34,429 bases of DNA, taken from positions 1 to 34,429 of IMG/VR virus record IMGVR_UViG_3300021964_000248. One strand, given 5' to 3'. Within the stretch, counting starts at the first letter, position 1, and each line of letters starts with the position of its first letter. Both the position numbers and the translations under genes were made by a program. Below, piece by piece: positions 1 through 34,429 of the stretch. The DNA comes from a virus. The notes beneath the pieces are model-generated. The model saw only the letters and a list, made by a program, of their open reading frames with translations, did not search any database and had not been told where the DNA came from.

Positions 1-39
1 GTGACGTTCAATTATAATCCACGGGGTTATAAGCCGTGA
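1..39 (+). CDS. C-terminal end of the long tail protein (continuation of the gene at 32646)
   Basis: The first 13 codons, including the TGA stop, are the same as the last 13 codons of the gene at 32646-34358. This is a second copy of the 3' end of that gene made by the terminal overlap, not a separate gene. Confidence 0.9.
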   Translation: MTFNYNPRGYKP

Positions 40-110
40 GGCGGGACGAACCGTGGTTCGCCCCGCAACTCACGAATTTGCGTGGCCCTGACCAGTTGCC
101 GTTACGCAAC
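1..110. repeat. Direct terminal repeat, left copy
   Basis: These 110 bases are identical to the last 110 bases of the window. The repeat lies inside coding sequence (the end of the long tail protein and the start of the next gene), which continues in frame across the join. This is what a circular or circularly permuted genome gives when assembled with an overlap. It could also be a real short terminal repeat, but a breakpoint inside a gene makes assembly overlap more likely. Confidence 0.95.
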
Positions 111-410
111 ATTTTCTTGTCGTTGACAGAGTATTTGCGTCGCTATTTTGCGTCTAATGTTGGGCATTGGTTGGAAGTTCAGGGGACGACAAATGCTGTT
201 GGGGAGTTGACGTTTGCTCATGGGGCATCGTTTACTCCGTCGTTGATTATTGCTACGGAACAGCATGTGGCTGCCAGTAGCCATGATGAGGGTGCGTTTC
301 ATGTTGATTCGCATGATGATACGAATGTGACTATTCACTTTCTGGTGTCAACCAGCGGTAATGATAGATCGAATACGGATGTGCATATTCATGTGTTGTG
401 CCTGCCGTAA
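36..410 (+). CDS. Small virion-associated protein, probable tail or neck component
   Basis: This 124-residue protein starts with GTG overlapping the stop of the tail gene (GTGA), as expected for translational coupling. The first 50 residues are predicted helical. Residues 50-124 look like a beta-rich domain with many His and Asp, in the pattern 'aHG..FTPslii....aFhVDSHDDTNVTIHFLV'. Many podoviruses carry a small protein of this shape directly after the tail-tube gene, which is why I call it virion-associated. I do not recognise a named family. It sits between the tail protein and the ejection protein cluster, and the next gene has its own promoter-like element. Confidence 0.6.
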   Translation: MRRDEPWFAPQLTNLRGPDQLPLRNIFLSLTEYLRRYFASNVGHWLEVQGTTNAVGELTFAHGASFTPSLIIATEQHVAASSHDEGAFHVDSHDDTNVTIHFLVSTSGNDRSNTDVHIHVLCLP

Positions 411-430
411 CCTGTGGGCCTGTGGATAAG

Positions 431-444
431 TAGAACGATATAGG
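431..444 (+). promoter_or_regulatory. Phage promoter-like element (TAGAACG type), short variant
   Basis: TAGAACG at 431-437 is followed by TATAGG at 439-444, directly before the GTG (450) and ATG (453) of the first ejection gene. The spacer is shorter than in other copies. There is no good Shine-Dalgarno between the element and the start, so a leaderless or near-leaderless mRNA is possible. Confidence 0.5.
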
Positions 445-452
445 TATTAGTG

Positions 453-941
453 ATGGCTAGTAGTTTGTTGACATCTTCTCCTGATTTGTTGGCACGGGGT
501 TCCCGTGCTTCTTTTGCTGACCCGCAGGGGTTTGGTTTGGGGGAGGCCGCTCAACGCCGTCAGCGTGAGCAGGCCCAGTTGCGTGCCCAGTTGCAACGTG
601 CCGGTTTGGGTGCGGAGACACAGCGAAGCACCCGTGATCTTACTAGGGCGTATCAGCAGGGGGCGGAGCCGCAGATTACTGGTTATGCTCAGCGTGGCCT
701 TGGTAGGTCCGGTATTTTCAATCGGGCTATGCAGGATTATATCGGTCAGTATCAGCGTGGTGTGGGGGATATTGCTCAACGTCAGCAGTTGGGTGAGGCT
801 GGTATTCAGTTGGGTGAGCAGATTTCGGCTGAGGATTTGCAGGATGCGTTGGATCGTTTGCGTTTCCAAACCACGGAACAAATTATTGCTGATGCCGCAA
901 TGTTGCGGCAGGAAGCACCGATGACCGGACTGTTTAGTTAG
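453..941 (+). CDS. Internal virion / ejection protein, small
   Basis: The protein has 162 residues from ATG 453; GTG 450 directly upstream is an alternative start. It is rich in Gln, Arg and Ala, and a long helical part (about residues 28-75) has many heptad-like Q/R/A positions. A region 'GYAQRGLGRSGIFNRAMQDYIGQYQRGVGDIAQRQ' near residues 75-110 resembles small ejection proteins of other podoviruses (the T7 gp14 position), in which a GR.SG turn is followed by amphipathic helices. It is the first of four consecutive genes of this kind ahead of the endolysin. The role is inferred from order, size and composition. TTG is the main leucine codon. Confidence 0.6.
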   Translation: MASSLLTSSPDLLARGSRASFADPQGFGLGEAAQRRQREQAQLRAQLQRAGLGAETQRSTRDLTRAYQQGAEPQITGYAQRGLGRSGIFNRAMQDYIGQYQRGVGDIAQRQQLGEAGIQLGEQISAEDLQDALDRLRFQTTEQIIADAAMLRQEAPMTGLFS

Positions 942-950
942 GGGATTGTG

Positions 951-1925
951 ATGGCTAGAGGTGTTCGTCGTCCTGTGTATTTGCAGGATGTTGACCGTAA
1001 TCGTCCGCCTTCGGATCGTGGGCAGACCGCTACCCCAACTAGGACGGTTTCTGTTCCTACGGTTCGGCCTACTACTTTGCCGATGCCGTCCGCTGATGCT
1101 CTCAGCAGCAGGTTGCAGCAAATTCGTCGTGAAACACCGTCAGATTCGGCACCACAGTTCGGCAGTTTGGGCGCATCAATTACCCCGCCTAGAGGTGGTT
1201 GGTCTGAAAGACAAGATATTGCTTTAGACTCTGTAAAAGATTATTACCGCAATTTGTCTGCTGGTTATGATGCTCAACGTGCAGCGGATGCTGCCGCCGC
1301 TGTTGGCGGCGGCGGAGGTGGTGGTGGGGCTGCTTTGCCGGATTATGGTCCTGCCCGTGAGTTGTTGGAATCACGTTTAGCGGGGGTTCCTGCTTCTTAT
1401 CAAGCCGAATATGATGCTTTGGCTGCAAGGGCTGCTGCCGAAGAGGAACGTTTAGCAAACATTTTTGGTACTTCTACTGGGCGCATCAGGGGAGCAGCAG
1501 CAACTTTGCAGACAGCGCTTCAGTCATTGGACCCTCAGGCGGCTTTTGTTTATGATGTTGGGGCACCTAATATTCCGGGTGTGAGTGTAGATTATTTGCG
1601 TGCATTGGGTGCTTCCGCTGATCCTGTGTCTGCTGAAGCACAGTTTGCCCGTGAGTTGTTGGGTTACCAGTTGGCTGCCAGCCAGCAGGCGGCAGCCGGT
1701 ATGACTTCTAGTTTGGAACGTGAACGGCAAGCCCGTTTGGCTGCGGCTTTGGCTATGGAACAGCAGGGTTACACTGCTGCCGAGTTGAATCGTGTTGCTG
1801 CTTTGGAGGATATCGCTAGGCGGCGCGCTGAGGCTGAAGCGCAGATTCGTGCCGAGGAACGTGCGGCTGCTGATGCTTTGCGTGACAGGTTGTTGGAAAT
1901 TGAATTGGCAGGAGCGATTGCCTGA
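951..1925 (+). CDS. Internal virion / ejection protein, coiled-coil with glycine linker
   Basis: The protein has 324 residues from ATG 951, which has AGGGGA about eight bases upstream; GTG 948 would extend it by one codon. Residues 1-60 are Pro/Thr-rich and probably disordered. A run of glycines at about residues 117-125 links this to an Ala/Glu/Arg-rich helical part. Residues 235-320 form a strong predicted coiled coil with many Glu, Ala and Arg. The stop overlaps the next start (TGATG). No catalytic motif is visible. By position it is a second ejection protein, which would leave the capsid with the DNA and help build the passage through the cell envelope. Confidence 0.6.
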   Translation: MARGVRRPVYLQDVDRNRPPSDRGQTATPTRTVSVPTVRPTTLPMPSADALSSRLQQIRRETPSDSAPQFGSLGASITPPRGGWSERQDIALDSVKDYYRNLSAGYDAQRAADAAAAVGGGGGGGGAALPDYGPARELLESRLAGVPASYQAEYDALAARAAAEEERLANIFGTSTGRIRGAAATLQTALQSLDPQAAFVYDVGAPNIPGVSVDYLRALGASADPVSAEAQFARELLGYQLAASQQAAAGMTSSLERERQARLAAALAMEQQGYTAAELNRVAALEDIARRRAEAEAQIRAEERAAADALRDRLLEIELAGAIA

Positions 1926-3217
1926 TGCCTCCGTTGACTGATGAAGAACTGAACGCTTTGTTGCAAACTTTGCAATATAGCCAGAATTATGGGATGTTTC
2001 CTGATGTGTTGGCTGGCGCTGCTGGCGATGATGGTGTAGGTAGAACAACTCAGGCCCAGTTGTTGGACCCTGAGTTGTTGACCAGTATCGGTTTGTTTGG
2101 TCCTGCACAAATTGCTTCTGGTTTGGAAGAACGTTTGTCGTCTGCTGGGCGTAAGGCGTTGGAAGATTGGAATGAGGAAGGTTTCACGTTGCAGCAGAAG
2201 ATTGATGCTGAACGTGTTTCTCAACAGCCCCCTGTTTTCATTAACGAAATTAAGAATCGTTACCAGTCGAATCCGACTGTGTGGAATATTGTTGGCAGTT
2301 TCTTTGATCAGATTGAAAAGGGAACTACCAGTGCCGGTGCTGTAAACGAAATTTTTGATGAGTCTTTGCCTGTTGACCAGTGGACTGTTCCAAAGGCTGA
2401 AGGCGGACCGGGGTTGTCTCCTGAGGTTGCTGCGGTTATTGGCAAAGAGGAGTTGAGTCTAAACGATTTGTTGTTGAACGCTGGTGTGTTGGAATCAGAT
2501 ATCCGAAGGTTGAAAAGTGATTTTTCTGCTTTTGAAAATGATGCTAGCACTTTCCGTTCGCAAAGGTTGCAATGGGGAACCAACGTTGATGATTCTGATT
2601 TAATTGATTTGCTTTCTCAGAAAGCAATTTGGGAACAGGGTCCTAAGGGTGTTGATGTTTCTGAGGAACGTCTGGATTATTTTAAGGATATTGGTGTTCC
2701 CGGTTTGGCGTTGTTGCCTGATCCAACAGAACGTTACCAGTTTACGACTGAAGATATCCGTCAGATGCGTAAGCCAACTCAGCGTGGCACCGAGTTGTCT
2801 TTGTTGGAGTCAATGATTCAGGAACGTTCCAAGCCTGCTGCTGCTTCAGGCGAGTTGCAGATGAAGGCTTTGCGTGATGTTGAGCGTGCTGAGCGTGAAC
2901 GTCAGGTTCGTTCTGCTTTGCCTCCTCGGCCTGAGCCTACGGAGGCTGAGCAGGTTGCTATTTCTCAGATTGCTAAACCGTTTACTCGTTTTTATGATGT
3001 TGGTCCTGCACTTGATATGGCTCCTACTCCTTTGCGCAGACAGGGCGGGTATCGTGCGCCTAGTTATTCGGAGGATTTGGCTAGGATGTTGTTGGAGGAG
3101 GAGAGAATTTTGGCTGGTCGTGCTGCCCGTGAGGGGGAACGTATGGCTTCTCAGGGTCGTACCCCGTTTTTGGATGCGATGCGTCAGGCTCAGTCTTATG
3201 GGCGGATGGTTGGCTAA
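1925..3217 (+). CDS. Internal virion / ejection protein, 430 residues
   Basis: This soluble protein of 430 residues is mostly predicted helical, with no signal peptide, membrane segment or known catalytic motif. The start ATG overlaps the previous stop by one base and the stop overlaps the following start (TAATG), so the ejection genes form one coupled unit. The C-terminal third is rich in Arg, Glu and Ala. Of the first eleven leucine codons, ten are TTG, which shows the codon bias of this cluster clearly. The function is inferred only from gene order. It does not resemble a peptidoglycan hydrolase. Confidence 0.6.
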   Translation: MPPLTDEELNALLQTLQYSQNYGMFPDVLAGAAGDDGVGRTTQAQLLDPELLTSIGLFGPAQIASGLEERLSSAGRKALEDWNEEGFTLQQKIDAERVSQQPPVFINEIKNRYQSNPTVWNIVGSFFDQIEKGTTSAGAVNEIFDESLPVDQWTVPKAEGGPGLSPEVAAVIGKEELSLNDLLLNAGVLESDIRRLKSDFSAFENDASTFRSQRLQWGTNVDDSDLIDLLSQKAIWEQGPKGVDVSEERLDYFKDIGVPGLALLPDPTERYQFTTEDIRQMRKPTQRGTELSLLESMIQERSKPAAASGELQMKALRDVERAERERQVRSALPPRPEPTEAEQVAISQIAKPFTRFYDVGPALDMAPTPLRRQGGYRAPSYSEDLARMLLEEERILAGRAAREGERMASQGRTPFLDAMRQAQSYGRMVG

Positions 3218-6200
3218 TGCCAGTTATTCGCAGCCCGTTTTCTCCGGGCGGGCCATCTAGTTCACAACCTAGTGTTCCTGCTTCACGGTCTACCCGTGCT
3301 GCTGGTGAAGATTTTTCTTCTTATATTTCTAGGTTGACTGGCAGAGAGTTCGGTCCTGTCCCTCTGCCAATGCAGCAAGTTGTTGAGCAGGTTGATATTC
3401 CGGCTCGTTTGTCTCCGCCTAAAAGGACTACGTTGGGGGCTTCTCGGCCTGCTGTTCAGCGGCGTGTTCAGGAAACTGAACCGCCGCAACCTGACACCCA
3501 GTTGGATTTGTCTAATTTGTTGCGGGATGTTTCTGCGGAGCGTCGTGAGGAACGTGGCCCTGAGGTCGCTCCGGAAGATTTTGTTTCTGAAAGCGATGTT
3601 CGTGATGCTGCCGCTAAGGCTCGCACCGAGTTGGCTGGAATGTTTAGTTTGCCGGAGGAGCAAAGACAGCAGGTTCGTGAGCAGATTGAGCAGATTGAGA
3701 TTGGTGAGGCGGCATCTACTGGCGGTATTGCCGGTTTGGCTAAGGGTTTGTTTGAGTTGTTGCCGTCTAGGGTTGAGGACCCTATCAAGGAAGGTGCTGC
3801 TGGTGCGTTGAGCACCGCTGGTCAATTTGTTGAAACTCCTTTTAGGGGTTTGCAGTCGTATGCGAAGGAGTTGACTGATTTCTTTACTGAGGGTCAGGAA
3901 ACTTCTTTTGCTGATTTAACTAGGCAGACAATAGGTCCGCTTAGTGAGCGTTGGGGTGATCCTGATTTTGACCCCGAATATAAGCCAATTCAAGACACAG
4001 CCCAAGCCTTGTTCGGCAAGGATTTGTCTGGCAACGATTGGGTGTCTGGTTTTGACACCGCATTAGAATTGGGTGTTCGTATTGGCGCTGATCCCACGAC
4101 TTACACTATTTTGACTCCGTTGAAGTATCAGGGTGCGATTGGGCGTTCTGCTGCTGCACAAGATTTTTTGCGTAGCGTTACGGCTGTCCCGTTAGATGAT
4201 GCAGTTAAAGCCCAGTATGCGGCAGATATTTACCGTTACGGCCCTAACTATCTGCCTACTAGTGTGCGTGATAGTTTGGTTCGTGAAGGAATTTTTGAGC
4301 CTGCTGGCATCCGGATTGCAGGTCAAACTGTTCCCGGCACTGAAAGTGTTAGCGAAACTTTAGGTGCCGGTATAAGTGCGGCAAGAGCCAGATTTGGTGA
4401 TATTGGTGGTGGTGCTACTGCTACGGCTATGACTCCGGGCAGTTTGATCGGGTTGACTGATATTGCTAGGAACGCTGATTTGACTACGGATCAGGTTTTG
4501 GATGCGTTCGCTATTCATGCTAGCACGATGCAGGCAAAGGCGGATGCCCGCCAGTTGGCAGGCGATTTGACTGGCAATAATGAAAGGTGGATGCGTCAAG
4601 CAGACACATTGTCACCCGAAGAAAGCCGCATGGTCATTGATTTTGCCGAAGGCATCATCAATGATGTCCCTGACAATTTGCGTCAGATAGCGGAAGCGTA
4701 TCGTCGCATGACACGGGATGAAGCGTTGGCACGTTTTAATGCTGAACGTCTTGATATTTCTCAACGTCGTGGATTGCGACTAGATGAAATCACTCCCCGT
4801 GACAACTGGTTCCACCGAACCACCACTTCAGGTGCTAAAGCACTGTTCAGTTCCAACAAGAAACGTAACGGTTTGGACGGCAACGCTATCAGGCGTTTGG
4901 TTGGCCGTGACACCGGTCTGTCTCCGCAACAGTTGGGTCGTGCCGAAGGGTTCACTATGGCCCGTCGGGACATGGATACTTTTCTTGGTGAAACTTTGGT
5001 TCATGGTGGTCGTTCAACCACAGAGTTGAACGACATTTTCCGTGCCAAGTACGGTGTCGATCTGTTTGAAGAAAACGTGGGGATTAACGGCAGAAAGTAT
5101 TTGGCTAGTTTGGTGCGACAGTTTGAACGCCAATCTTTTGTTGACAACATTTTCAGGTTCCGTCCATCGCAAATCAAACCGTTGTTGTCTACTGGTCCTT
5201 CCGCACAGGAAGTGCGTACAGTTATTGACGGTTTTGAATCTGTGCTCCGCAGCGTGGACAAACTGATCGTTGGTACCGGCGAGGGCACCGCCAAGGCTGG
5301 TGCCAAGGACTTTATGGAGTCTATTATTGCTGGCATCAGGAACGCCAGCAACCCTAATTTTTTAAAGTCGTCTAGGGCTAGGGCTGATGTGAAGCGGTTG
5401 CGTAATCGTTTGGCCCAGTTGGAAAGTCAAATTGCTGAGGTTTCTGGTCGTGCGGCTCGTTCTACTTCGGATGCTCAGGACGAGTTTTTGACTGTTGTTG
5501 GCCCGTTGGAATCTAGGATCAGGTCGTTGCGTTCGGCTATTGATACTGGCGAGGGCGAGATTGCTTTGGCTGAGGACTGGTTGCGAGCGAAGTATGCTCA
5601 GGTGTTTTTGGATACTGCCGGTATGCCTAGTGGTGTGGCTGGTATTGCTGACCGGTTGGACAGGTGGGCGTTGCAGAATCTTTCTGGTGCGGCGTTGAAG
5701 TCTAATCGTCAGGCTATTGCCCGTCGCAGGGCGCAGGCCATCAAGCGTGGCCGTGAGATTGATGTTGAGGGTGTGCAGGAGAATTTGTCTGCCGCTAGAA
5801 AAGAACTTGCACAGAAGCAAAGGCAAGTTACTGCGGCTGAGAATTCGTTTAATAGCGTTGTTGCGAATGATCCTGATGTGAAGAATTTGCGATCTTTGGA
5901 ACGCAAGCGTGACAGCATTGCTTCCAAGTTGGATACTGCTTCTGCTTTGGCTGGCTTGTGGGATGTGTGGGAACAAGAGGTTGGCATTTTGTATCGTTTT
6001 GATATTGCCAAGATTCGTGCGATCATTGCCGATATGCCGGGGGCAAACATTAGGGTAAATAAAGCGGTTGATCCGGCAGATTTGCCTGTCAGAAATCGGG
6101 TTCAGGAAGATTTGGATGCTGTTTTCAATCGGGTGTTCCCTGAGGGTCGTGGCGCAAAACCTCCGGTCGAACCCCCCAAGGGCAAACTTCAGCCGTCTAC

Positions 6201-7830
6201 CCAGCAGAGCATTGCATGGTTGGAGAAGGTTGACGAAACTATGCGCAATCTTCCGACATATGGGCTTGATGAAGGTGAACTGGATGCTTTGACTAGGGTG
6301 ATGTCACAGTTGTTTAGTTTGGAAGCGGACGCATCTCAAATTCAGTTGTCTGCTGTCAAAGCCGCAGAGTTGGAGGATCGTGTCCGTCAAGGTTTGATGG
6401 ATGGTGATTGGGTTCAAGATTTGGAAACCGGCTGGAAGGGCATTGAAGCCTTGCAGGCGCAGGTGTCACCTAGGTTGTCTCAGCGGTTGGCTGGGGATGT
6501 TGAGGATGACTTTATTGATAATGCGTTGAACGCTTTGGGTGATCCTGTTAACCGTAGTCTTTTGGTTGAAATGTATGATGCTAATTTGCGGTACTTTAAG
6601 AGTACCGCTATTTTGACTGCTGGGTTTACGGTTCGTAATGCTTTGACAGCGGCGTTTAACAACATTGTTTATGGTGTGACACGTTCCCAGTTCCGTGAGG
6701 GCCGCAAGTTTATGTGGTCGCTTTATCGTGTTGGGCCAGAGGAAGCCATCAGGCGTTTGCCCAAGGAGCAGAGGGCACGTTATGAGGCGGCGTGGCGTAT
6801 GGTTATTGCTACTGGCGGCGGTCGAATGATTGACGAAATTGTGCCTGTTATCGGTAGGGACAGGAACCGTTTTAATGGTCGTGTTGCTAGTGCTGCTTAT
6901 ACTGTTGGTGATTATGTGTTCCGTCCGTTTGGCGGACGGTTGTCTGCTGGTGCTCGTCGTTTGAATGAGAACGTTGAGATTGCTGTTCGTATGCCGTTGG
7001 CGTTGAACGCTGTTGATAAGGGTTTCAGTTTGGAGGCAGGTGCTGCACGCATCGCTAGGGTGCAGTTTGATTACACTGATTTGTCTGCTTTTGATCGTGT
7101 CGCTAAAAGAATTATTCCGTTCTGGGTGTTTGCTAGTCGCAATATTCCGTTGCAGTTGGTGAATCAGGCTGTGCGTCCCGGCCCGTATAGGGCGTATGAA
7201 AAGTTGCGTGGGTCTGGTGATGCGAATGATGGCAGGTTGCCTAGGTGGCGTGTCCGTCAGATGCCGGTGCCGGTTGGCGACTGGTTTTTGAATTTGGATT
7301 TGCCGTTTGTTGCTGTCGGTGAAGATATTGCCGGGTTGACTAGTGTGTCTGGTTTGGCCGGTCAAATCAGTCCTTTGCCTAGGGCGTTGGTTGAATACAT
7401 TACTGGTCAACGCATTGCGTTTGGCACTAGTTATCCGTATTCGGAAGATTACAGGCAGATTGGGGTCACTGATTTTCCGGGTGTGTTGCTTGGGGCTGTG
7501 TCTGATCGTGGTGAAGCACTCAAACAAGGTTTGGTTAAGGAGAAGGATATTCAGATTGCTGGCGGGGCGTTGCCAGCGTTGCAGAATATTCAGCGTTATA
7601 TTGCGGCTATTTCTCAGGCGACCGGTTTGAAAGAAACCGGTCAACGTGTTTTGGGTGGACCGGAAGATTATTTTGAACGTGACGCTTTGTTGACTGGTTC
7701 GAAGGCTGTCGGTATAGATGTGTTCCAGTCGACTAGAGCAACGGAGTCGCAAGAACGTAAACGTATTATTGCAGAGATTAATGATTTGATGCGTGAACAG
7801 GGCAGGATTGCAGGAGCGTTGAGCGAATGA
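3217..7830 (+). CDS. Very large internal virion / ejection protein (T7 gp16 position)
   Basis: At 1537 residues this is the largest protein of the genome. Residues 1-110 are Pro/Ser-rich and probably disordered. Predicted coiled coils lie near residues 724-745 and 830-880. The C-terminal part (about 1230-1340) carries a stretch I know from other large phage virion proteins: 'FDYTDLSAFDRVAKRIIPFWVFASRNIPLQ', preceded by 'RLNENVEIAVRMPLAL'. There is no lysozyme or transglycosylase motif, unlike T7 gp16. It overlaps the endolysin start by ATGA. The likely role is to be ejected into the cell and form or line the DNA channel across the envelope. A fused or polyvalent enzymatic function in the unrecognised middle cannot be excluded. 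Leucine is mostly TTG. Confidence 0.75.
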   Translation: MPVIRSPFSPGGPSSSQPSVPASRSTRAAGEDFSSYISRLTGREFGPVPLPMQQVVEQVDIPARLSPPKRTTLGASRPAVQRRVQETEPPQPDTQLDLSNLLRDVSAERREERGPEVAPEDFVSESDVRDAAAKARTELAGMFSLPEEQRQQVREQIEQIEIGEAASTGGIAGLAKGLFELLPSRVEDPIKEGAAGALSTAGQFVETPFRGLQSYAKELTDFFTEGQETSFADLTRQTIGPLSERWGDPDFDPEYKPIQDTAQALFGKDLSGNDWVSGFDTALELGVRIGADPTTYTILTPLKYQGAIGRSAAAQDFLRSVTAVPLDDAVKAQYAADIYRYGPNYLPTSVRDSLVREGIFEPAGIRIAGQTVPGTESVSETLGAGISAARARFGDIGGGATATAMTPGSLIGLTDIARNADLTTDQVLDAFAIHASTMQAKADARQLAGDLTGNNERWMRQADTLSPEESRMVIDFAEGIINDVPDNLRQIAEAYRRMTRDEALARFNAERLDISQRRGLRLDEITPRDNWFHRTTTSGAKALFSSNKKRNGLDGNAIRRLVGRDTGLSPQQLGRAEGFTMARRDMDTFLGETLVHGGRSTTELNDIFRAKYGVDLFEENVGINGRKYLASLVRQFERQSFVDNIFRFRPSQIKPLLSTGPSAQEVRTVIDGFESVLRSVDKLIVGTGEGTAKAGAKDFMESIIAGIRNASNPNFLKSSRARADVKRLRNRLAQLESQIAEVSGRAARSTSDAQDEFLTVVGPLESRIRSLRSAIDTGEGEIALAEDWLRAKYAQVFLDTAGMPSGVAGIADRLDRWALQNLSGAALKSNRQAIARRRAQAIKRGREIDVEGVQENLSAARKELAQKQRQVTAAENSFNSVVANDPDVKNLRSLERKRDSIASKLDTASALAGLWDVWEQEVGILYRFDIAKIRAIIADMPGANIRVNKAVDPADLPVRNRVQEDLDAVFNRVFPEGRGAKPPVEPPKGKLQPSTQQSIAWLEKVDETMRNLPTYGLDEGELDALTRVMSQLFSLEADASQIQLSAVKAAELEDRVRQGLMDGDWVQDLETGWKGIEALQAQVSPRLSQRLAGDVEDDFIDNALNALGDPVNRSLLVEMYDANLRYFKSTAILTAGFTVRNALTAAFNNIVYGVTRSQFREGRKFMWSLYRVGPEEAIRRLPKEQRARYEAAWRMVIATGGGRMIDEIVPVIGRDRNRFNGRVASAAYTVGDYVFRPFGGRLSAGARRLNENVEIAVRMPLALNAVDKGFSLEAGAARIARVQFDYTDLSAFDRVAKRIIPFWVFASRNIPLQLVNQAVRPGPYRAYEKLRGSGDANDGRLPRWRVRQMPVPVGDWFLNLDLPFVAVGEDIAGLTSVSGLAGQISPLPRALVEYITGQRIAFGTSYPYSEDYRQIGVTDFPGVLLGAVSDRGEALKQGLVKEKDIQIAGGALPALQNIQRYIAAISQATGLKETGQRVLGGPEDYFERDALLTGSKAVGIDVFQSTRATESQERKRIIAEINDLMREQGRIAGALSE

Positions 7831-8855
7831 GTTGGCGTACATTTATTGATGTTTCAAAATGGCAAGGCAACATTGACTGGGATGTTATGAAAGCGTCCGG
7901 TGTCGATGCCGTCTATATGCGTGCCTATAACGGCACCCGTAGAGATGAACGGTTGGATCAGTATGCCGAAGGTGCCCGACGGGTCGGTCTACCGTTCGGC
8001 CTATACACTTATTGGCGACCGAAGTATACCGCTAAGGATCAGGTGGATCGTTTGTTGGGTGCTCATGCGGAGACAGGTGCTTCGTTGATCCCGATGATTG
8101 ACGTTGAGCATGGCGATGAGAAGCCGCCGACGGAGATCGGCCAGTCGGTTACTGAGGGTGTGCGTCTGGTGGAGGAACGGTTGGGTGTGTCACCGGTTAT
8201 TTATACGGCGGCATGGTTTTGGAATCCTGCTGTGAAGGGTGCTGATGTTTCGCAGTGTCCGTTGTGGTTGGCCCGTTATTCCACGCCTCAGCCTCCGGTT
8301 CCGGTAACCCAGTGGGGTGATTTTGCTATGCGTTACCGTCAGCCTGCTGTGCCGAATGATTGGTCACAGTGGGATGCTTGGCAGTTTTCTGCTGACGGCA
8401 ATTTCCGTGGCAAAACGTATGGTGCGTCGTCGTCCCATTTGGATTTGAACATTATGCGTCCTGATTCTTGGGCACGGTTCCAAGTGAACCGGCCCAAGCC
8501 GGAGCAACCCGCCATCGATATTCACTATTCAAAGGATTATGAGATGAAGATTGTTACCCCTGTCCGTGTCTATGACTCACGCTATATGGGCGCACACAGC
8601 AAGAGTGAGACCCGTCGTGTTCGTGTGACAAGTTGTGAGGCGGCGTTTGTGAATATTACGGCGGTTGATCCTGCCGGTGACGGCTGGATCACCGTGTGGT
8701 CTGGGACGACCATTGTTCCGAACGTGTCGAACGTCAACTTTGTGAAGGGTCATACGATTGCGAACAGTGCGTGGGTGCCGGTGACGAACGGGCAGATTGA
8801 CATTTTCACTAGCGCACCTTGTCATGTGCTGGTCGATTTGCAAGCCGTCGTCTAG
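7827..8855 (+). CDS. Endolysin: GH25 muramidase with actinobacterial-type C-terminal surface domain
   Basis: This 342-residue lytic enzyme cuts the glycan strands of peptidoglycan at the end of infection. Residues 4-220 are a glycoside hydrolase family 25 domain, with FIDVSKWQG (Asp8), the catalytic pair in PMIDVEHG (Asp92, Glu94), and HLDLN (Asp206). After a Pro-rich linker, residues 243-342 form a beta domain with TPVRVYDSR, AAFVNITAVDPAGDGWITVW, SNVNF, IANSAWVPV and HVLVDLQA. This pattern is familiar from repeated surface domains of actinobacteria, notably Acidimicrobiia, and probably binds the cell wall. There is no signal peptide, so release needs a holin. The gene is last in the late unit. 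Its stop lies inside a triple 7-bp repeat. Confidence 0.93.
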   Translation: MSWRTFIDVSKWQGNIDWDVMKASGVDAVYMRAYNGTRRDERLDQYAEGARRVGLPFGLYTYWRPKYTAKDQVDRLLGAHAETGASLIPMIDVEHGDEKPPTEIGQSVTEGVRLVEERLGVSPVIYTAAWFWNPAVKGADVSQCPLWLARYSTPQPPVPVTQWGDFAMRYRQPAVPNDWSQWDAWQFSADGNFRGKTYGASSSHLDLNIMRPDSWARFQVNRPKPEQPAIDIHYSKDYEMKIVTPVRVYDSRYMGAHSKSETRRVRVTSCEAAFVNITAVDPAGDGWITVWSGTTIVPNVSNVNFVKGHTIANSAWVPVTNGQIDIFTSAPCHVLVDLQAVV

Positions 8856-8869
8856 CGTCTAGCGTCTAG
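8849..8869. repeat. Three tandem copies of CGTCTAG
   Basis: The 7-mer CGTCTAG occurs three times in a row. The first copy contains the endolysin stop codon and the last ends next to the 3' end of the tRNA on the other strand. It fills the whole space between the converging transcripts. No hairpin terminator is seen here. Confidence 0.9.
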
Positions 8870-8943
8870 TGCCTGTGGTGGGATTCGAACCCACACTGTA
8901 CGCAGTTTGAGTGCGCCGCCTCTGCCAGTTGGGCTACACAGGC
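8870..8943 (-). tRNA. tRNA with anticodon CAA (reads UUG, leucine), short variable arm
   Basis: The minus strand folds as a full cloverleaf. It has a 7-bp acceptor stem (GCCTGTG/CACAGGC), discriminator A at 8870 and a 3-bp D stem with GG in the loop. The anticodon stem is GCGCA/TGCGT with loop CTCAAAC, giving anticodon CAA. The T stem is GTGGG/CCCAC with loop TTCGAAT. CCA is not encoded. The variable region is only about five bases, whereas bacterial tRNA-Leu normally has a long variable arm. UUG is the leucine codon the late genes prefer. It lies just past the last minus-strand gene and is probably co-transcribed with it. Confidence 0.9.
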
Positions 8944-8959: not shown

Positions 8960-9214
8960 CTAGAAGCCGGTTTCGTCTAGGTATTCTCTGAGTTGGTTGA
9001 CGAGTTTGCCGAACTCTAACATGACCAGCATGATGGCGGCTGTGTCGCCGTCTGTCGCACGGTCGTAGACTTCTATCAGTTGTTTAGCGTCGTATACGGA
9101 GATTTCGAATTCGACTCCGAATCCTTCTTCGATTTCTTCTTCGATTTCGTCTAGCCGTTCGGACATTTCTTGCCAGTGTGGGTTGTCCTCCCAGCCGTCA
9201 TCTACATTGCCCAT
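8960..9214 (-). CDS. Small acidic protein of unknown function
   Basis: The protein has 84 residues from ATG 9214, and this start overlaps the upstream lysozyme-like gene by 13 bases. An open frame continues upstream but has no composition typical of a real protein there. Residues 12-35 are very rich in Glu and likely helical (EMSERLDEIEEEIEEGF). Residues 55-80 are also helical with hydrophobic positions. There are no cysteines, no membrane segment and no recognised family. It is the last protein gene of the leftward block before the tRNA. Confidence 0.7.
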   Translation of the reverse strand: MGNVDDGWEDNPHWQEMSERLDEIEEEIEEGFGVEFEISVYDAKQLIEVYDRATDGDTAAIMLVMLEFGKLVNQLREYLDETGF

Positions 9215-19067: not shown

Positions 19068-19169
19068 TTAATGGTCTATCTCATCAGTGATCGGAGACCA
19101 TCCCGACCAGACACCCACAACCGTGGGTGTTTCGACATCGCATCCAAATCCTAGCCAAACTCTAGCCAT
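19068..19169 (-). CDS. Very small possible protein, 33 residues
   Basis: Starting at ATG 19169, inside the end of the upstream gene, this frame reads MARVWLGFGCDVETPTVVGVWSGWSPITDEIDH. The opening 'MARVxLxFxxxVET' resembles the start of the 54-residue product at 9806-9970, which supports it being real. The Shine-Dalgarno is weak (GGGGA). An 8-bp hairpin (19111-19130) lies inside. Confidence is moderate because of the length. Confidence 0.42.
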   Translation of the reverse strand: MARVWLGFGCDVETPTVVGVWSGWSPITDEIDH

Positions 19170-19554: not shown

Positions 19555-19818
19555 GAGATTTTTTCATGAATCTTTATACATTCCACGAATAAATATACAG
19601 ACATCGGAGCGCCCATCGTGCCCGCATTGTGGTGGATCGTTCACCTAGCCTATGGTCCGACGATAGGCGACCTTTATAGTCAACATTAGGGGAAACTACC
19701 GGTAAATGTTAGGTCAGCCTAACAACCCGACCGACACTAGCCACCCATACCGGGGTACCCGTGGGGGCGCGCCCATCAACTTGGATTCTAATATAATACC
19801 ATAGAGCCAGAGCGCATC
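19555..19818. other. Palindrome-rich non-coding region, candidate origin or control region
   Basis: No convincing gene is seen here on either strand. The stretch has several exact inverted repeats: GCCTAT/ATAGGC near 19657-19680, TGTTAGG/CCTAACA around 19710, GGGTACCC (19753-19760) and GGGCGCGCCC (19765-19774). The last is followed by an AT-rich run (TCTAATATAATACC). It is the largest gene-free stretch of the genome. Such a mix is typical for replication origins or packaging sites, but no repeated initiator box is apparent. Confidence 0.5.
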
Positions 19819-19971
19819 CTATTTTGGTTTTTGGATACCCCCACCTATCATTCTTTTTAGGGTGGTGTGCGCACTGTATGATATTGTTATTCCTAGGGCG
19901 ATTGTTATGGCTGTCAATGCCACTAGTATTCCGCTGATTAGGTTGCGGAGTTTTACCAGAGGTGTTTGCAC
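19819..19971 (-). CDS. Small membrane protein
   Basis: The protein has 50 residues from GTG 19971; an upstream ATG (20013) would give 64 residues with a 61-base overlap of the previous gene. A clear membrane segment at about residues 10-33 (NLISGILVALTAITIALGITISYS) is followed by a basic tail (TTLKRMIGGGIQKPK). No Shine-Dalgarno is obvious, so coupling to the upstream gene is assumed. It could be an envelope or exclusion protein. Confidence 0.55.
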   Translation of the reverse strand: MQTPLVKLRNLISGILVALTAITIALGITISYSAHTTLKRMIGGGIQKPK

Positions 19972-32646: not shown

Positions 32647-34358
32647 TGGCGTTCCGTGCTTTTGCCATTGAGGATTTTACGGGCGGCCTGAATCTTCGGG
32701 CTGATGTATTCAACCTGAGTAAGAACGAGTCGCCTGACTTGTTGAATGTGGACATTGATCCACGGGGCGGAGTGTTTCAACGCCGTGGGTTGCAACGGTG
32801 GGGCACCGGCAATGTTGCTGGTGTTTTACCGCAAAACTGGGGTGGGTCAGTCAACCTGTTTTTCTGGGAGTCCGGAACTCCTCAGGTGTTGCTGTCTGGT
32901 AACGACACGATCTACTATTCGGATGACGGCACGTTTACTGACACCACGATCAGCACTGCTTCTAGTGTGTTTGGGGCTGGGTTTGCTGGCTGGTCTGACG
33001 GTTCGGACGATGTGGTGTATGTGGCGTGTGGTTGTGCTACTGGTTCTCACAAGTGGGATGGTGCCGCCAAAACCAGTTTGACTGCTAGCGGCACGGGGAA
33101 CTGGCAGGATGATCTGCTGTCTCCGACTACTGGGTTTATGCCTGCGGCTCATCATGTTGCCACGCACAGCGAACGGCTGTGGGTGGCATATACCCGTGAG
33201 GATGCTGTTGATTATCCGGATCGGGTGCGTTTCTCGCACCCGTTGTTCCCTGAATCGTGGCGTGAACAGGACTATATTGATATTGTTGGTGGGGGTCGTG
33301 GGATTACGGCTTTGGTGCCGTATTCGGGTCATATGCTGGTGTTCAAAGAACACGCAGTGTACGCCATCTTCGGCTACAGTGACGATACTTTTCAGGTGGT
33401 TACGATCACTGAGGAGTTGGGTGCTGTAAGCCCCAGTGCTGTGGCGCAGACAGAAGAGGGCATCTTCTTTTTTGACGGGCAGAATGGTTTGTTCAAGTAT
33501 GATGGCCGTTCGGTTCAGTATATGTTTGAGCCGTTGCGTCCGTTGTTTGATATCAACGAGTTTCACGATGAGGCTTTGGCACAGGTCAAGGTGTCTGCGG
33601 TGAACCGCAAGGTGTATGTGTCGTTGCCGACTGGTGTGTCCACCAGTTCGGAAACGTACAGCATGATTGGTGTCAACTATAGGGATTCCGGCATTTTGTA
33701 TGCTGGTGGCGGTTTGACGTTTGATGCTGTTGGTGTCACTTATGATGATTCTGATGTGAAGTGGGATGGTGCCACCCAGTCGGATGATGTGACTGTGACG
33801 TATGTGTGGGATTCCACGTTGGGTAAGAATGGTGCTTGGACTAAATATCAGATTGCTGATGGTTTCGGTTTGGGTGCTGGAACTATTTTTGTGGATTCTT
33901 CTAGTAGGGTTTACGAGTTGTTTGTTCATCCGACTAAGCCGCAGGTTTTCTTTTTTGATCGGACGTTGTATACGGATAATGTGTTGGGATATTCCAGTCC
34001 GTTTCAGTCGTTTTATGTTACGTCGTGGCAGGATGCCGGTTCGGCATCCACTAAAAAGTTTTGGCGTAGACCGGAGTTTGTGTTGAATCGTGAGTTTGCG
34101 GCATATGATTTGAATGTGGCTGTTTATCGGGATTGGGATTCGTTGACTCTAAAGCGACAGTTTGATGTGCCGTCTGGCGGGTATTCTGGGTTGGGTTCGC
34201 CGTCGCAGTGGGTGTCGTCGTTTGGTTCTGAGGTTGCCCGTGGCAATAGCCTTGGTTTGGGGCGTGCCGTTCAACTAAAAATCAGTGGTCCTGAGTCTGC
34301 GTCTTGGGGTGTGAATGGTGTGACGTTCAATTATAATCCACGGGGTTATAAGCCGTGA
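32646..34358 (+). CDS. Long tail protein (tail tube B / nozzle type)
   Basis: The 570-residue protein starts MAFRAFAIEDFTGGLNLRADVFNLSKNESPDLLNVDIDPRGGVFQRRG, a well-known opening of tail proteins in podoviruses and some siphoviruses. The rest is beta-rich with repeated 'dgq.glf.ydG' elements (FFFDGQNGLFKYDGRSVQYM; HKWDGAAK; DSDVKWDGATQ), suggesting a beta-propeller like the nozzle of T7 gp12. It is the last gene before the sequence wraps to base 1, and its final 13 codons are duplicated there. Confidence 0.82.
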   Translation: MAFRAFAIEDFTGGLNLRADVFNLSKNESPDLLNVDIDPRGGVFQRRGLQRWGTGNVAGVLPQNWGGSVNLFFWESGTPQVLLSGNDTIYYSDDGTFTDTTISTASSVFGAGFAGWSDGSDDVVYVACGCATGSHKWDGAAKTSLTASGTGNWQDDLLSPTTGFMPAAHHVATHSERLWVAYTREDAVDYPDRVRFSHPLFPESWREQDYIDIVGGGRGITALVPYSGHMLVFKEHAVYAIFGYSDDTFQVVTITEELGAVSPSAVAQTEEGIFFFDGQNGLFKYDGRSVQYMFEPLRPLFDINEFHDEALAQVKVSAVNRKVYVSLPTGVSTSSETYSMIGVNYRDSGILYAGGGLTFDAVGVTYDDSDVKWDGATQSDDVTVTYVWDSTLGKNGAWTKYQIADGFGLGAGTIFVDSSSRVYELFVHPTKPQVFFFDRTLYTDNVLGYSSPFQSFYVTSWQDAGSASTKKFWRRPEFVLNREFAAYDLNVAVYRDWDSLTLKRQFDVPSGGYSGLGSPSQWVSSFGSEVARGNSLGLGRAVQLKISGPESASWGVNGVTFNYNPRGYKP

Positions 34359-34429
34359 GGCGGGACGAACCGTGGTTCGCCCCGCAACTCACGAATTTGC
34401 GTGGCCCTGACCAGTTGCCGTTACGCAAC
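34320..34429. repeat. Direct terminal repeat, right copy
   Basis: This is the exact copy of bases 1-110. Removing it gives a closed genome of 34,319 bp. Confidence 0.95.

Follow-up and report, generated by a model that had tools for sequence, protein, structure and literature searches.

Virus record IMGVR_UViG_3300021964_000248, analysed over its whole length of 34,429 nucleotides (nt) and referred to here as the window, encodes a transfer RNA (tRNA) with anticodon CAA and a variable loop of only five nucleotides. The textbook rule is that bacterial tRNA-Leu belongs to class II. Our analysis indicates that the gene is very probably a functional elongator tRNA-Leu(CAA) of a short-armed, class-I type that many Actinomycetes carry in their chromosomes; derived from a host or a phage, it would be charged by the host and would raise UUG decoding.

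ARAGORN places a tRNA-Leu(caa) on the minus strand at 8869-8943, the single tRNA in the whole window, and the gene scored 59.2 bits against Rfam RF00005 at 8870-8943 (gathering score 29). Its features are as follows.

8870..8943, minus strand: tRNA-Leu(CAA), class I, CCA not encoded (ARAGORN; Rfam RF00005; conservation in the sister phages L122/L377 and L376; covariation).
8907..8909, minus strand: anticodon CAA, which reads UUG (ARAGORN, Rfam and parse).
8895..8899, minus strand: variable loop ACAGU, 5 nt, ending in U48, the Levitt partner of A15 (parse; alignment with long-armed relatives).
8918..8934, minus strand: leucine-type D-arm with a 3-bp stem GCC/GGC and an 11-nt loop CAACUGGCAGA, carrying A14, A15, G18G19 and A20a and leaving 13:22 unpaired (layout as in chromosomal long-armed tRNA-Leu(CAA)).
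8870..8870, minus strand: discriminator A73, the main determinant for leucyl-tRNA synthetase (LeuRS) (Rfam and parse; determinant role from PMC9976931).

The stems comprise 7 bp (acceptor, GCCUGUG/CACAGGC), 3 bp (D), 5 bp (anticodon) and 5 bp (T), and the anticodon loop, CUCAAAC, is identical to that of many chromosomal forms. With 5 nt in place of the 10 nt or more that define a class-II variable arm, the molecule falls outside that class. A first-pass annotation of this DNA had described a complete cloverleaf with anticodon CAA, discriminator A and a variable arm of about five bases, and each of these points is borne out here, with the strand added. When the tRNA is aligned with 13 relatives, 97.9% of the pair cells are standard and 12 of the 20 pairs show changes on both sides, a level reached by none of 500 shuffles and not approached by slid controls. 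Acceptor pair 6:67 is U-A in the window but A-U in the sisters L122/L377 and L376, a compensatory change on both sides that indicates selection on the tRNA as an RNA.

The body of the molecule is that of a leucine tRNA. In E. coli, LeuRS relies on A73, A15-U48, G18G19 and A20a and does not need the long arm, and tRNA-Leu from which the arm has been deleted is still charged (PMC9976931). The window tRNA contains all of these determinants, together with C2-G71, an antideterminant against seryl-tRNA synthetase in E. coli. Its D-arm, GCC CAACUGGCAGA GGC, has the same layout as GCG GAATTGGCAGA CGC in a long-armed chromosomal tRNA-Leu(CAA) (L368). It shares with class-II bacterial tRNA-Leu(CAA) the anticodon, A73, A14, A15-U48, G18G19, A20a, the 3-bp D-stem and the unpaired 13:22, and differs in the absence of the long variable arm that defines that class. 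A 3-bp D-stem with 13:22 unpaired is equally common in long and short bacterial leucine tRNAs (97% in each), and occurs in about 20% of other class-I tRNAs. The combination of A15-U48, unpaired 13:22 and A73, hereafter the leucine signature, was present in 73 of 82 short-armed leucine tRNAs of phages versus 9 of 418 other phage class-I tRNAs (Fisher p about 1e-66), and in 80% of 99 short-armed leucine tRNAs versus 1% of 157 non-leucine class-I tRNAs at bacterial loci. These counts come from a parse of ARAGORN tRNAs in loci fetched by a CAA pattern, which biases the prevalence figures; the pattern leaves the D-arm and positions 15, 48 and 73 free and hence is no cause of the contrast. The parser drops low-scoring tRNAs and misplaces the 3' end in some CCA-encoding ones.

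The window tRNA is thus most likely an ordinary leucine tRNA that would decode UUG, as had been predicted, and the leucine signature and the identity to other leucine tRNAs put that prediction on firmer ground than had been assumed. It had also been suggested that the tRNA might carry another amino acid, and nothing was found in favour of this. Such a molecule would have arisen by mutation of the anticodon to CAA in a class-I tRNA of another isotype, and would insert a different amino acid at UUG through reassignment or mistranslation. We consider this extremely improbable and reject it on the identity values and the leucine signature: among the matches listed, the best non-leucine tRNA reaches 76% identity, versus 96% for the sister phage and up to 85% for actinobacterial chromosomal short CAA tRNAs; the signature is found in just 1-2% of non-leucine class-I tRNAs; and the chromosomal counterparts occupy the locus used by long-armed tRNA-Leu(CAA).

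These counterparts were recovered by searching bacterial genomes with a strict short-armed CAA pattern; ARAGORN called tRNA-Leu(caa) in 119 of the 120 matches listed, mostly in Actinomycetes. In Alloscardovia macacae (Actinomycetes), where all 48 tRNA matches were typed, the short form is the sole CAA tRNA, and the CAG, TAG, TAA and GAG leucine tRNAs are long-armed. A pattern survey of 148 genomes of the class Actinomycetes gave 78 short, 39 long and 3 intermediate forms and no genome with both (Fisher p about 1e-16), in a sample whose genomes are not phylogenetically independent and of which about a fifth went unclassified, the survey demanding an exact GGTTCGANTCC T-arm. A second pattern survey, covering 297 Actinomycetota genomes, yielded some 22 plausible short forms (ARAGORN confirmed 12 of 29 fetched loci) and 169 genomes with a long-pattern match, and the two showed no real co-occurrence. 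The short form thus stands in place of the long one. The three intermediate genomes (G348, G363 and G310) have CAA matches with a spacing of 32 nt and a variable loop of about 7 nt, perhaps a transitional or an independently reached stage in the loss of the arm. E. coli genomes gave no match to short-armed tRNA-Leu at the sensitivity used.

A PdtaR-like regulator lies within 2.5 kb of 118 of 145 short and 16 of 24 long CAA loci. At the Bifidobacterium locus L137 the short tRNA sits between what we take, from reading the translations, to be genes for pyruvate kinase and a PdtaR-like response regulator. Because short and long forms mostly adjoin the same response-regulator gene, they probably represent one orthologous tRNA-Leu(CAA) gene, whose arm some lineages have lost in place. 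A wider scenario, to which we would give even odds, holds that the chromosomal tRNA-Leu(CAA) of many Actinomycetes lost its arm in place and became class I while keeping leucine identity, and that phages of Actinomycetes and of unrelated hosts have spread this design, possibly because it escapes enzymes that read the long arm. Outside Actinomycetota, Tumebacillus avium (L202/G012) carries one short-armed CAA sequence at three chromosomal places with a different D-arm, which suggests an independent origin or derivation from a phage.

The chromosomal form (loci L161, L138, L137, L155 and L133) resembles the window tRNA in its CAA anticodon, 5-nt variable loop (mostly NCAGU), leucine D-arm, A73 and T-arm GUGGG-CCCAC, with identity of up to 85% among the matches listed. 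It differs in the acceptor stem and in its position beside the PdtaR-like regulator, the phage copy lying beside endolysin/lysozyme genes. Taken with the arm-independent LeuRS of E. coli (PMC9976931), these chromosomal tRNAs mostly remove the earlier doubt that a normal bacterial LeuRS would charge the molecule. A works-like comparison, limited to an organellar tRNA and synthetase, is human mitochondrial tRNA-Leu(UUR), which LeuRS charges although its variable arm is not long (PMC9976931). The tRNA cluster of Mycobacterium mucogenicum/phocaicum contains a tRNA-Leu(TAG) with a short variable loop, its usual isoacceptor being long (PMC6582537); that case concerns TAG in a bacterial tRNA cluster, and neither leucine identity nor the chromosomal CAA gene was analysed there. 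The tRNA-Leu-2, 3 and 5 of M. tuberculosis have long variable loops (PMC11541572), a statement compatible with other tRNA-Leu of that species being short, without saying so. A literature search made mostly without subscription papers turned up no account of chromosomal, short-armed tRNA-Leu(CAA) as a feature shared by Actinomycetes, and an earlier description is possible. Leucine tRNA genes are commonplace in phages, and the short-armed sequences are surely present in tRNA databases. The window tRNA adds one more case to a structural variant of tRNA-Leu that has drawn little notice.

Among isolated phages, short leucine tRNAs are found in Streptomyces phage Comrade (CAA), Mycobacterium phage GenevaB15 (TAG and CAA), Pseudomonas phage ZC03, the Prochlorococcus cyanophage P-RSM6 and Erwinia phage FIfi106. 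They share with the window tRNA the 5-nt variable loop and the leucine signature (A15-U48, 13:22 unpaired, A73); these phages differ in being larger and in having further tRNAs adjoining, and in several of them the short leucine tRNA has another leucine anticodon. In viral contigs the short-armed CAA pattern yielded at least 48 to at least 112 ARAGORN-confirmed tRNAs depending on the parse, roughly half of the matches listed being due to chance. Within the phage family, the tRNA is present in L376 and L377 (the contig of L122) of 34 loci with a related helicase, and is an accessory gene of one subclade. Among the matches listed, its nearest kin beyond that subclade are the short CAA tRNAs of actinobacterial chromosomes. 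A distant podovirus relative (L409, MW202803.1) has ARAGORN-called tRNA-Trp and tRNA-Met at 19690-19837, near a comparable convergent junction, and an annotated RNA ligase.

Several observations weigh against a short-armed leucine tRNA with a function in a phage of Actinomycetes. The near relatives L379 and L402 (helicase identity 77-81%) show no tRNA in the region covered, which includes 10 kb of downstream sequence. Phages of Erwinia, Pseudomonas and Prochlorococcus have short-armed leucine tRNAs as well; the design thus persists also in phages of hosts that are not known to share it, and with such similar tRNAs in such varied phages, similarity alone does not fix the host. An Actinomycete host is suggested mainly by the tRNA, and the capsid and helicase relatives among isolates point to no settled host. 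The predicted minimum-energy fold of the naked RNA is not a cloverleaf (z -1.85), an uninformative result. A non-cloverleaf predicted minimum is common for unmodified tRNAs.

Codon usage bears on what the tRNA would be for. The first-pass annotation had counted TTG at ten of the first eleven leucines in the gene at 1925 and at two of the first eight in the capsid gene, and both counts are exact. By gene block, the observed share of TTG and that expected from silent sites are 0.81 versus 0.35 at 36-8855, 0.55 versus 0.33 in the head/packaging block and 0.38 versus 0.18 in the early minus-strand block. TTG is above composition in every block, most strongly in 36-8855, and plain base composition is rejected as the source of the excess. 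In a matched late region compared across 28 family members, the top two TTG shares belong to the two measurable carriers (0.80 and 0.78), the other members ranging from 0.37 to 0.76, with the near relatives L379 and L402 at 0.47. Silent-site composition explains 8% of the variance in TTG by regression, and the carriers stand at a z of about 2.2, which is weak, the carriers being sisters; their top share is suggestive only.

The preference for TTG is a family trait, which the tRNA may have reinforced. An excess caused by the tRNA alone is not supported, as relatives without it prefer TTG too. The first leucines of the capsid gene are mostly CTG and CTC, and this gene is presumably the most expressed; its codon use is therefore a poor fit with a tRNA simply serving the most abundant late protein. 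The earlier proposal that the tRNA may serve late genes thus survives in part: the ranking of the carriers favours it, and the location of the tRNA outside the late operon and the TTG preference of tRNA-less relatives (37-76%) count against it.

An exact 110-bp direct repeat occupies both ends of the window (1-110 and 34320-34429), which therefore probably represents an entire genome of about 34.3 kb. Its gene set is podovirus-like, with terminase, portal, capsid, DnaB-like helicase, AEP-type primase and endolysin, and no integrase is among the protein families found in it. Two genes flank the tRNA.

7827..8855, plus strand: endolysin gene (PHROG 291 endolysin, E 4.8e-30), convergent with the tRNA and the final gene of the rightward late block.
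8960..9214, minus strand: small open reading frame (ORF) of 84 aa, stopping 16 nt before the 5' end of the tRNA on the same strand.

The DNA match to the sister phage L122 covers the tRNA and most of the 84-aa ORF. Because it follows a minus-strand ORF by 16 nt and converges with the endolysin gene, the tRNA belongs with the leftward (replication) gene block, at its end, and lies outside the rightward late operon. Scanning for promoters and terminators beside the tRNA gave no signal better than shuffles. Three tandem copies of GTCTAG(C) lie at 8850-8869, where the endolysin stop codon falls and immediately 3' of the tRNA. Elsewhere in the window, a type II hammerhead ribozyme was detected at 19070-19137 on the minus strand (50.4 bits; gathering score 37), with a small ORF of that strand on either side; an Rfam search of nine related loci did not find it.

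We propose that this podovirus acquired the tRNA from an Actinomycete host or from another phage, and that it would be transcribed together with the leftward gene block and processed and given its CCA by the host. Host LeuRS would then leucylate it through A73 and the D-loop/T-loop core and not through the missing arm, adding decoding capacity for UUG, the codon preferred by late genes. A different purpose, which we think unlikely, would be to back up the host's own tRNA-Leu(CAA) when a tRNA-targeting defence of the host destroys or modifies it during infection. Phage tRNAs are known to replace cleaved host tRNAs, and carriage by only some members of the family is what a host-dependent counter-defence would lead one to expect. 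However, no defence targeting tRNA-Leu(CAA) was identified in this analysis, the anticodon loop CUCAAAC is that of many chromosomal forms and bears no visible resistance change, and the highest use of TTG in carriers fits codon supply at least as well. This rival differs in purpose alone, and even if true it would leave the leucine assignment unchanged.

A still less probable alternative, to which we attach little credence, is a passenger or integration-site relic without a translational role. Its restriction to the window and two related contigs, with other relatives lacking it, and the chance-level promoter and terminator signals alongside would suit a relic. The gene is complete, however, and shows the compensatory change at 6:67 relative to the sister phages; no integrase was found; and an attachment site would preserve the host 3' half, whereas the nearest chromosomal match listed reaches only 85%. 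A working leucine tRNA that adds to UUG decoding remains the reading we favour.

The chromosomal class-I tRNA-Leu of Actinomycetes is of more interest than the phage gene itself. It yields a testable statement about tRNA identity, namely that many Actinomycetes, Streptomyces, Mycobacterium and Bifidobacterium species included, appear to read UUG by a class-I tRNA-Leu. This bears on recognition by LeuRS, on isotype prediction where a long arm is expected for leucine, on the assignment of phage hosts from tRNAs, and on toxins and modifying enzymes that pick out class-II tRNAs through the arm.
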